DNA from: Nanobdellati archaeon
GTDB taxonomy: Archaea; Nanobdellota; Nanobdellia; Woesearchaeales; GCA-2686295
Reading direction: 5' to 3'
Length of the DNA: 53,458 nucleotides
NCBI GenBank assembly: GCA_014384375.1
Contig: JACNFY010000015.1
Span: 1 to 53,458, forward strand
A program made the translations under genes and the position numbers. Shown here piece after piece: positions 33,494 to 36,950 of the stretch. The notes under the pieces are model-generated. The model ran no database searches and was not told the DNA's origin. It saw only the letters and a list, made by a program, of their open reading frames with translations. Positions within the stretch are counted from its first letter, which is position 1. Each line of letters starts with the position of its first letter.

Positions 33494-34024
33494 TTGATGG
33501 TTGAATTAGCTATTGAAGTTGATGAGAAAGATAATGTTATAGGTGTAAGACCTAAAGAAGAGTTTCGTAATTCTAATTTTATTCATAGATCTTCTCATCT
33601 TTATCTGTTTAATTCTAAAGGAGAATTTCTTGTACAGAAGAGAGCTTTTGTTAAGAAATCGTACCCGGGTCTTTTTGATGCATCTGTATCCGGAACTGTT
33701 CGAGATGGTGAGACTTACGAACAAACTCTTGAAAGAGAAATGAAAGAAGAATTAGGTATTAGTGTTCCTTATTCTAAGTTATTCAAGTATGAATTTTCTG
33801 ATGATGTTGATAAAGCTATCAAAACTGTTTTTAAAGCTACATATGACGGGCCATTCAAACTTCAAAAGGAAGAAGTTGAAGCTGTTTACTGGATGAGTCT
33901 TGGTGATATTAAACAGAAGATGAGTGAACATCCTGAGCAGTTTTGTCCGCCTTTTTTTAAAGCTTTGAAAATATGTTTTAAGAATAAATTTTTAGAAAAA
34001 AACGATGAGAACATGAAGAGCTAA
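33494..34024 (+). CDS. NUDIX hydrolase (IPP isomerase-like)
   Basis: SGTVRDGETYEQTLEREMKEELGI NUDIX box. Confidence 0.85.
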   Translation: MMVELAIEVDEKDNVIGVRPKEEFRNSNFIHRSSHLYLFNSKGEFLVQKRAFVKKSYPGLFDASVSGTVRDGETYEQTLEREMKEELGISVPYSKLFKYEFSDDVDKAIKTVFKATYDGPFKLQKEEVEAVYWMSLGDIKQKMSEHPEQFCPPFFKALKICFKNKFLEKNDENMKS

Positions 34025-34045
34025 GGGGTGTATGAGGTGTTGGCT

Positions 34046-34081
34046 GCTAAGAATTAAGCAGGAACTCTCCATGTTCTTAGC
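34046..34081. repeat. Inverted repeat (8-bp stem)
   Basis: gctaagaa ... ttcttagc after the NUDIX gene stop. Confidence 0.7.
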
Positions 34082-34131
34082 ATCATTACTACTATATAGG
34101 AATAACTTATATTTAAATCTTTCGGTTTTTT

Positions 34132-34147: not shown

Positions 34148-34160
34148 TTATCGTTATTTG

Positions 34161-34266
34161 ATATAACAAAACCCCTTTAGAGTTTTGGAACCCAAAATGC
34201 TCCGCATTTTGATGTAACAAAAATGGCTATGCCATTTTTGAATCCCAAAAACCTTAAAGGTTTTTG
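34161..34266. repeat. Tandem array of four CAAAA-nnn-TTTTG tri-loop hairpins with alternating linkers
   Basis: Hairpins 34167-34187, 34193-34211, 34218-34240, 34246-34266; linkers ATATAA / GAACC / ATGTAA / AATCC. Confidence 0.9.
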
Positions 34267-34271
34267 ATAGG

Positions 34272-36950
34272 TTACCAGCTAAGATATTTCATAAAAAACT
34301 TTCTTTCCTTTCTGGTGTAGAATTTTCTCCATTCACCAAATAGGAATATCAAGATTGCGAATGGAACTGCCACTAGGAATTCAGCCCTGCCAAGAGGATG
34401 CGTTCCAAAGAAAGTGTTTGCAGGAGGCCAGAACACAATAATGCCTAATAAGATTAATTCAACAACAATACCTAACCAAACCAACTTGTTTCTAAAGAAA
34501 CCCTGCTTGAATATTGATTGCCTCCTTGTACGACAAATCATGACGTCAGGAATCTGGCATATGACAATGCTAGCAAAGAAAGCAGTGACAGCCTTCAAGT
34601 ATAGAGGGTCAGTAATTGCTAGTTCTGTGCCCCAACTCCATCCTCCGCTAAACAGAACAAAGAAGTAAGCGAAGAAGCCAGCAGCTGCCTGAATCATACC
34701 AACAATACCATAGGAGATGGACAACAGTTGAGGACTCAACAGTCTCTCTTTTCGAGAACGAGGAGGCTCCTTCATAACATCAGACTCTGGTCTTTCTCTG
34801 CCAAGGCCCAGGGCTGGTAATAAATCTGTTCCTAAATCGATTGCTAGTATTAAGACGACTGTTAATGGTAGAGGAATACCTAATAATACAAAGGCAATGA
34901 ATGGTAATATCTGAGGAACATTGCTTGTTAAGATATAGGCGATGAACTTTTTTATGTTGGAGTATATGGTCCTACCTTCTTCAACAGCGTTTACAATGGT
35001 TGCAAAATTGTCATCCAGCAACACCATGTTGCTAGCTTCCTTAGCAACCTCTGTCCCGATGATACCCATTGATATGCCGATGTCAGCGTTTTTCAAAGCA
35101 GGTGCATCATTCACACCATCGCCAGTTACAGCTACTATTTCTCCGTTGGCCTGCAATGCTTGCACAATCTTAAGCTTTTGTATTGGGGAAGTCCTTGCGA
35201 ATATGATATTTTCTTTTTTTAGTATCTCTCTTAAATCTTCATCGCTTAATTCTATGAGCTCTTTACCAGTTATGATTGTGTGTCGATATCCTTCTTCTAT
35301 TATACCTACTTTTCTTGCGATTGCTTCTGCAGTCAAGCTGTAGTCTCCAGTGATCATTATTACTTTGATACCTGCTTCTTTGCACTTCTCGATTGCTGCT
35401 GGAATCTCAGGTCTTGGAGGGTCGATGATGCCAACTAATGCAACGAATATGAAGTCTTCATTGTCAATCTTTCCATAAGACTGGCAGTAAGCAAGACCAA
35501 GAACCCTTTCCCCTCTGGAAGCTAAGTCTTTGTAATGCGTCTCAATAATTTTCCTTGTATTTTCATCCAGTTCTTTTTTAGTGTTGTTTATTATTATTTG
35601 GCTGCATTTCTCGAGCACAACTTCAGGAGCGCCTTTTAGATATGAGAACTTCTTGTTTTTGAACTTGTTCAGGGTTATCATGCATTTTGTCTTGGAGTCA
35701 AATGGTTGCTCATCAAGTCTTGGATGGTCTTTTTGAATTTGGTCTATGTTTACGTAGTGCTCTGCAAATGTTAGTAAAGCTCCTTCAGTTGGATCTCCTA
35801 GGTATTTCTTTTTATCCAGTTTTGCATTGTTGCAAAGCACAGCTATACCCATTGCTGTGTCGAAACCATCTACTTTCTCGGCATAGTCTTTTTCATGAAG
35901 TTCTCTTAAATTGATGAACAAGGAGTGGACAAACATCTTGTTCTGGGTTATTGTTCCTGTTTTGTCAGTGCAAATTACAGTTGTTGAGCCTAAAGTTTCT
36001 ACTGACTCAAGGTTTTTTATTAAGGTGTTCTTCTTTGCCATCTTTCTAGAAGCCATGCTTAAGGCTAATGTTACTGTTGGTAGAAGTCCTTCTGGAACGT
36101 TTGCTACTATAATACCGATTGCGAATATCAGACTGCCTATCAATTGGTTGCCAAGAGCAAAGCTCAGGAAGAAAAAGACAACTCCGAGGATGATTGCAAT
36201 AGTTGATATTATCTTTATGAAATGATTAATCTCTTTTCTGATAGGAGTTACAACCTTTTTTGTCTCTTTTGTTAACTGAGCAATCCTTCCAATCTGTGTC
36301 TTCATACCAGTTGAATAAACTATAGCTGTGCCGGTTCCTGACTGCACAAGTGTTCCTGAGAAAATCATATTTCTGGTCTCTAATATGTCTTCATGTATGC
36401 ATTCTAAGCTTCTTAACTGTGGCTCTGATTCTCCTGTTAGAGCAGAGTGGTCAACCTTTAACATGTGCTGGTCTATGAGCCTTGCATCGGCGGGTATCTT
36501 GTCTCCTTCTGACAGAAAGATGATGTCGCCAGGCACAAGTTCCATTGCAAGTATTTCTCTCTTTTTACCATCTCTCAAAACCTGTATCTTGCTTGGCATC
36601 ATCTTCTTGAAACCCTGCATGATCTTCTCAGACTGGTATTCCTGTATGAAAGTGAATGTGGCGTTTAGGAAAACAACTATTACAAGAGCAATTCCAATGT
36701 ATAGGTTTCCTTCACCAGGAGTTATGTACTCTGCAAAGAACGCTAATCCAGAACCTGCTAACAACAGCAAGGCAAAAAAGTTCGTGAAGTTCTTCAGGTA
36801 TCTTATGATTAAAGGAACATCCTCTTTTTCCTCGATGATGTTTTTTCCATACTCTTGGAGTCTTTTCTGAGCTTCCTCGTTTGATAGTCCTTTTTCTGAG
36901 GAGTCAACTCTTTTATACAACTCTTTCAGAGAAATCTTGTGCTCATCCAT
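34272..36950 (-). CDS. P-type cation-transporting ATPase (P2-type)
   Basis: SALTGESEPQ, PEGLLPTVTLALSM, CTDKTGTITQNKMF, TGDGVNDAPALKNAD. Confidence 0.95.
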   Translation of the reverse strand: MDEHKISLKELYKRVDSSEKGLSNEEAQKRLQEYGKNIIEEKEDVPLIIRYLKNFTNFFALLLLAGSGLAFFAEYITPGEGNLYIGIALVIVVFLNATFTFIQEYQSEKIMQGFKKMMPSKIQVLRDGKKREILAMELVPGDIIFLSEGDKIPADARLIDQHMLKVDHSALTGESEPQLRSLECIHEDILETRNMIFSGTLVQSGTGTAIVYSTGMKTQIGRIAQLTKETKKVVTPIRKEINHFIKIISTIAIILGVVFFFLSFALGNQLIGSLIFAIGIIVANVPEGLLPTVTLALSMASRKMAKKNTLIKNLESVETLGSTTVICTDKTGTITQNKMFVHSLFINLRELHEKDYAEKVDGFDTAMGIAVLCNNAKLDKKKYLGDPTEGALLTFAEHYVNIDQIQKDHPRLDEQPFDSKTKCMITLNKFKNKKFSYLKGAPEVVLEKCSQIIINNTKKELDENTRKIIETHYKDLASRGERVLGLAYCQSYGKIDNEDFIFVALVGIIDPPRPEIPAAIEKCKEAGIKVIMITGDYSLTAEAIARKVGIIEEGYRHTIITGKELIELSDEDLREILKKENIIFARTSPIQKLKIVQALQANGEIVAVTGDGVNDAPALKNADIGISMGIIGTEVAKEASNMVLLDDNFATIVNAVEEGRTIYSNIKKFIAYILTSNVPQILPFIAFVLLGIPLPLTVVLILAIDLGTDLLPALGLGRERPESDVMKEPPRSRKERLLSPQLLSISYGIVGMIQAAAGFFAYFFVLFSGGWSWGTELAITDPLYLKAVTAFFASIVICQIPDVMICRTRRQSIFKQGFFRNKLVWLGIVVELILLGIIVFWPPANTFFGTHPLGRAEFLVAVPFAILIFLFGEWRKFYTRKERKFFMKYLSW

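Follow-up and report, generated by a model that had tools for sequence, protein, structure and literature searches.

The locus

The window, i.e., the whole stretch of 53,458 nucleotides that was analyzed, is contig C27 of an archaeal genome of 1.27 Mb, in which genes for SRP54, archaeal ribosomal proteins, the proteasome and SBDS were recognized in the translated sequences. A gene for a P-type cation-transporting ATPase (34272..36950, minus strand; function read from the translation of the ORF) abuts, with its 3' end, an array of four hairpins. Hairpin 1 (34167..34187, CAAAACCCC-TTT-AGAGTTTTG) is joined by the 5-nt linker GAACC (34188..34192) to hairpin 2 (34193..34211, CAAAATGC-TCC-GCATTTTG). 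A 6-nt spacer, ATGTAA (34212..34217), separates this first unit from the second, in which hairpin 3 (34218..34240, CAAAAATGGC-TAT-GCCATTTTTG) and hairpin 4 (34246..34266, CAAAAACCT-TAA-AGGTTTTTG) are joined by the 5-nt linker AATCC (34241..34245). The array stands between two copies of the direct repeat TTTGATA, a putative target-site duplication; the left copy occupies 34157..34163, and the right copy, 34263..34269, overlaps the foot of hairpin 4. The hairpins and linkers agree with those written out in an earlier note on this DNA, every loop being of 3 nt, and the array is the doubled two-hairpin unit that the note had described. The two mismatches that it had seen in hairpin 1 are also present; both are C.A on the plus strand, and correspond to G.U wobbles in RNA of the minus strand, which is the coding strand of the adjacent ATPase.

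A comparison of the folding with shuffled sequences, suggested in the earlier note, was carried out with 200 dinucleotide shuffles, none of which matched the array. The z-scores were -5.3 for RNA of the plus strand, -5.0 for RNA of the minus strand and -6.6 for DNA, i.e., the array folds far better than the shuffles on both strands.

On its other side, the array is followed by an archaeal-type promoter with a BRE/TATA-like sequence, CCGAAAGATTTAAATA (34108..34126, minus strand), which is conserved in three relatives (G003, G004 and G005), so that the array is placed between the 3' end of the ATPase and a promoter of the same direction. In the region 34010-34126 of the minus strand, this promoter is followed by a small, stem-closed region with an invariant CAACACCTCATACA core, which is kept in the same three relatives. 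The region has no match in Rfam, and is probably an undescribed small RNA beside SRP54/ATPase. This small conserved, transcribed-looking region and its promoter separate the array from a NUDIX gene. The description of the array as lying between convergent genes is thus correct for the ORFs, but not once the promoter and the small region are counted.

A family of double hairpins

Further copies were sought, as had been proposed, and found. A BLAST search of the same genome showed that the composite of hairpin 1, GAACC and hairpin 2 recurs on contig C8 with 91% identity over 66 nt, and that another GAACC-linked hairpin pair is present on contig C3; the linker is found within C8:6151-6195 and C3:10500-10542, and the genome has three exact GAACC-linked units. 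When the unit was represented as a pair of C-A4/5...T4/5-G hairpins with 5-6 nt between them, this pattern gave 29+29 matches, versus 2+4 for a reversed-pattern control. Of the seven other family members, six showed enrichment of the pattern, of which there was little elsewhere in the order.

We also performed a strict search of 193 genomes, in which both hairpins and a linker of exactly 5 nt were required, and the reversed pattern served as the control. The collection covers an order with at least 88 families, a number that would point to a DPANN group, e.g., Woesearchaeales. Strict units were found in family f1 (11 in the genome of the window, 7 in G004, 2 in G005 and 10 in G006) and in genus g38 of family f37 (7 in G043, 22 in G111 and 21 in G187), with control counts of 0 in both groups; another genome of this genus, G146, had 0 strict units. 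Outside f1 and g38, they occurred as single copies in a few genomes, and were nearly absent from the other ~180 genomes. The reversed control was non-zero in just 2 of the 193 genomes. A scan of named GTDB contigs yielded one match, in Prevotellaceae, which we take as chance. By this distribution, the double-hairpin family is confined to a small number of archaeal lineages. The idea of a palindromic repeat family, put forward in the earlier note, is borne out by these copies, which rule out a one-off spacer. That the array is a one-off palindromic spacer or an assembly artefact has nothing in its favor beyond the AT-rich composition; with units of this kind in at least 8 genomes that belong to two families, and reversed controls near zero, the probability of this explanation is practically negligible.

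The statistics on the anatomy of the family are based on a 446-kb sample (~1/3 of the genome), targeted loci and pattern searches. There are 87 distinct arrays, of which 72 contain two hairpins, 8 contain three and 7 contain four. Linkers have 5 nt in 68 of 109 cases and 6 nt in 30, i.e., 5 or 6 nt in 98 of 109, and their sequences are many. The alternation of conserved linkers ATRTAA and (G)AAYCC, as read from the window, does not extend to the family, in which the length of 5-6 nt alone is constant. We rejected the idea that a two-hairpin unit was simply duplicated with its linkers fixed, since the sequence of the linker varies whereas its length is kept. The view that inner stems vary while their pairing is kept is well supported: in double hairpins chosen by their outer five pairs, the only ones used for these counts, Watson-Crick pairing holds at pair 6 in 156 of 160 hairpins and at pair 7 in 121 of 148, with 115 distinct inner sequences. 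Some inner sequences recur and are common to different loci and families, e.g., ATCAAAGAT (five times) and AGCAAAGCT (four times). No Rfam model exceeded its gathering score for the hairpin array. The asymmetry of G.U versus A.C on the sense strand amounted to 3 versus 1 events, too few for a test of selection on RNA.

Hairpins are about 10 times denser in the gaps between ORFs than inside ORFs, as defined by a simple ORF caller. By the same kind of simple calls, the genes flanking classifiable arrays are tandem in 40 cases, convergent in 12 and divergent in 10. The expected location mainly at convergent genes was not found, and a convergent-gene terminator as a family-wide rule is ruled out by these numbers. 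It should be noted that, in G006 (L268-L275) and G187 (L248-L256), the linkers on either side of a hairpin are often complementary, e.g., ATGC[hairpin]AGCAT, which lengthens the stem beyond a bulge.

Empty and filled sites

The distance from the ATPase stop codon to the promoter is 145 nt in the window, compared to 29-32 nt in G003-G005, where the site is empty. Removal of the array together with one copy of TTTGATA leaves 39 nt; hence, we favor the reading of the window array as an insertion at this site. The other filled sites contain a unit of ~41-56 nt between direct repeats of 4-7 nt. For example, the uS3 site is filled in the genome of the window, with TGATAG on both sides of the double hairpin, and empty in seven relatives, which have AATGATAGAAAG or a similar sequence, with overlapping stop and start codons in most of them. 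The eL14 site is filled in the same genome, with the repeat TGTTT, and empty in G002 and G003; the old Shine-Dalgarno (SD) sequence and ATGTTT still precede the insert, which is followed by a second TGTTT. This insertion is probably common to G001 and, hence, not recent. At DnaG, filled in the genome of the window and empty in G002-G005, the repeat GGAGG is the SD itself. The eL39 site, with the repeat ATGG, is filled in G002 and empty in G001 and G003-G006. Joining the flanks produced the arrangement of the relatives at uS3, eL14, DnaG, eL39 and the window site.

Direct repeats were compared to a control in which the left and right flanks were re-paired among the arrays 400 times. Repeats of at least 6 nt flank 12 of the 87 arrays (control mean 2.0, maximum 8), and repeats of at least 5 nt flank 20 (control mean 7.5, maximum 15), leaving 67 of 87 without a repeat of 5 nt or more. 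In overlapping genes (ATGA), the stop and start codons already demand a part of the repeat. At the start of the hydrogenase gene HydA in G005 (L225), there are nested insertions, with a 31-nt duplication of the gene start, separated by SD-bearing hairpins.

The recurrence of the units, the presence of empty and filled sites, and the excess of direct repeats over the control argue for mobile non-autonomous elements. We consider it likely that the window array consists of two tandem copies of a non-autonomous mobile double-hairpin element of ~41-56 nt. Certain properties are less expected for such an element. The similarity between copies outside the hairpin frame is low, which is unusual for descent from one master element. 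The length of the direct repeats varies, and the 31-nt duplication at HydA is a poor fit to a transposase with a fixed stagger. A crude motif scan of the 446-kb sample (~1/3 of the genome) gave no match to a Y1/HUH transposase, the type that includes the RAYT enzymes of REP sequences.

The variable repeats, from 4 to 31 nt, would also fit an origin of the hairpins at the site itself, through fold-back (template-switch) synthesis or through error-prone end repair of staggered breaks. Either process would give rise to perfect hairpins that differ in sequence, and to short duplications of the target, with no mobile element involved. The nearly complete Watson-Crick pairing of stems that differ in sequence is consistent with this origin, as is the 5' foot CAT of the hairpin, which complements the host start codon in copies at ATG starts. 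However, formation in place does not explain why the same hairpins turn up in two families, as well as at loci that are not linked (the five and four occurrences of ATCAAAGAT and AGCAAAGCT), why a composite of 66 nt recurs at 91% identity, or why the two-hairpin unit and its 5-6-nt linker are constant. We regard this origin as unlikely.

In the mobile-element model, insertion at a new site would duplicate 4-7 nt of the target, and copies would be kept where they are harmless, i.e., after gene ends, in tRNA introns and between the genes of operons. Copies at gene starts could be tolerated if the duplication restores the SD or the start codon or, alternatively, if the second hairpin carries its own SD just before the start. 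The elements would be moved by an enzyme acting in trans, which may recognize single-stranded hairpins.

Copies at gene starts

In 23 of the 87 arrays, an SD-preceded ORF of at least 60 codons begins at or just past the array. The SD is located inside the last hairpin at 16 loci and just after it at 7. Where it is inside the hairpin, the start codon is the 3' foot in 13 cases and lies 0-3 nt beyond the foot in 3; at nearly all of these loci, another ATG-containing copy is kept ahead of the first hairpin. Among the 7 loci with the SD after the array, the SD is the repeated target in several. Many of the last hairpins are alike (CAWAATTT...GAGG...AAATTWTG), and one such hairpin at gene starts, CATAATTTTCTGGAGGGAAAATTATG, is identical in the genome of the window and in G005. 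Judging from this resemblance, the elements are likely to bring the SD along instead of gaining it later. The SD-bearing hairpin may drive translation.

The stereotyped layout at these 16 loci, with the SD in the hairpin and the start codon at its foot or close to it, would also be expected if the arrays were cis-regulatory RNA structures (putative terminators, 3'-end stabilizers or translation-start modules) selected for structure, with dispersal being secondary. The strong folding, and the position of the window array directly past the ATPase stop codon and ahead of a promoter, point in the same direction. Conversely, arrays are usually missing at orthologous sites, the insertion scar at eL14 keeps the old SD and start, hairpins are found in tRNA introns too, and G.U pairs are few, both strands pairing equally well. 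Taken as a primary explanation, such a regulatory role appears very unlikely.

For the mobile element, the gene-start copies suggest a more specific, tentative model, to which we give somewhat less than even weight, namely that of mobile ribosome-binding sites. Such elements would insert into start codons or SDs and duplicate these. They would separate genes that overlap (and are coupled in translation), and would provide an SD-loop hairpin with a new start codon at its foot, core ribosomal protein genes included. The copies at uS3, eL14, eL30 and eL39, by which the translation start is rewritten, would represent a route for changing the coupling of genes in operons, and the comparison of filled and empty sites allows for the study of translation coupling.

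Comparison to known systems

The closest known systems are the mitochondrial double-hairpin elements of Allomyces and the repetitive hairpin-forming elements, or RHE, of sponges (PMC2800124), which consist of one or two short hairpins with a conserved structure and diverging sequence. Like the arrays studied here, they are present or absent between close relatives, are located in spacers and RNA genes, and form multi-hairpin clusters by tandem insertion. The differences are that the present copies reside in an archaeal genome rather than in mitochondria, and that some of them carry an SD and sit on gene starts. In addition, the double-hairpin elements of Allomyces have no flanking duplications (PMC2800124), whereas the archaeal copies have direct repeats above the control.

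REP, BIME and REPIN sequences, associated with RAYT transposases (PMC3116915, PMC2817692, PMC3733652), are also small, non-autonomous extragenic palindromes that are often paired or clustered. A REPIN is composed of two inverted tagged REPs, unlike the unit described here, which has two hairpins, a 5-6-nt linker and target duplications. Inspection by eye showed no REP tag, GTAG or CGTC, at the hairpin feet of the copies in the genome of the window; in G111, some copies have CGTCC/GGACG, but solely as a linker. MITEs (PMC10969869) are similar in being small and non-autonomous and in having short target-site duplications, the lengths of which vary in our case. Unlike MITEs, the unit lacks terminal inverted repeats shared across it, each hairpin being its own palindrome; by eye, the unit ends are complementary just in the CAAAA/TTTTG feet.

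The programmed bypassing elements (byps) of yeast mitochondria are mobile hairpin inserts in coding sequence that are skipped by ribosomes. The archaeal inserts resemble byps as mobile hairpins tolerated in expressed regions, but are found at gene starts, where they supply a new start site. Among the literature searched, nothing matched on hairpin repeats in DPANN archaea or on mobile elements carrying an SD. Mobile hairpin elements of such small size have been described mainly in mitochondria or, as tagged REPs, in bacteria. A family that disperses in very small archaeal genomes, and of which the empty sites and target duplications are clear, offers a tractable case for the spread of DNA that is poor in sequence and rich in structure.

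tRNA genes and neighboring repeats

Many tRNA genes of the genome of the window look, by eye, interrupted in the D-loop and in the T-loop (after GGTTCAAA), in addition to the usual anticodon position; the loci are L183, L184, L188, L189, L197, L085 (560-760) and L003. Some of these inserts appear, again by eye, to hold the same hairpins as the array family. ARAGORN reported no tRNA in L003 and L085, though half-genes are visible there, and we judge both by eye to be tRNAs with unusual introns. A second motif is present near tRNA genes (L079, L085, L186, L190, L193, L194 and L197), and consists of a variable hairpin, e.g., GACGC-NNN-GCGTC, a GCGACTGAAAGGA-like stretch and, often, another hairpin.
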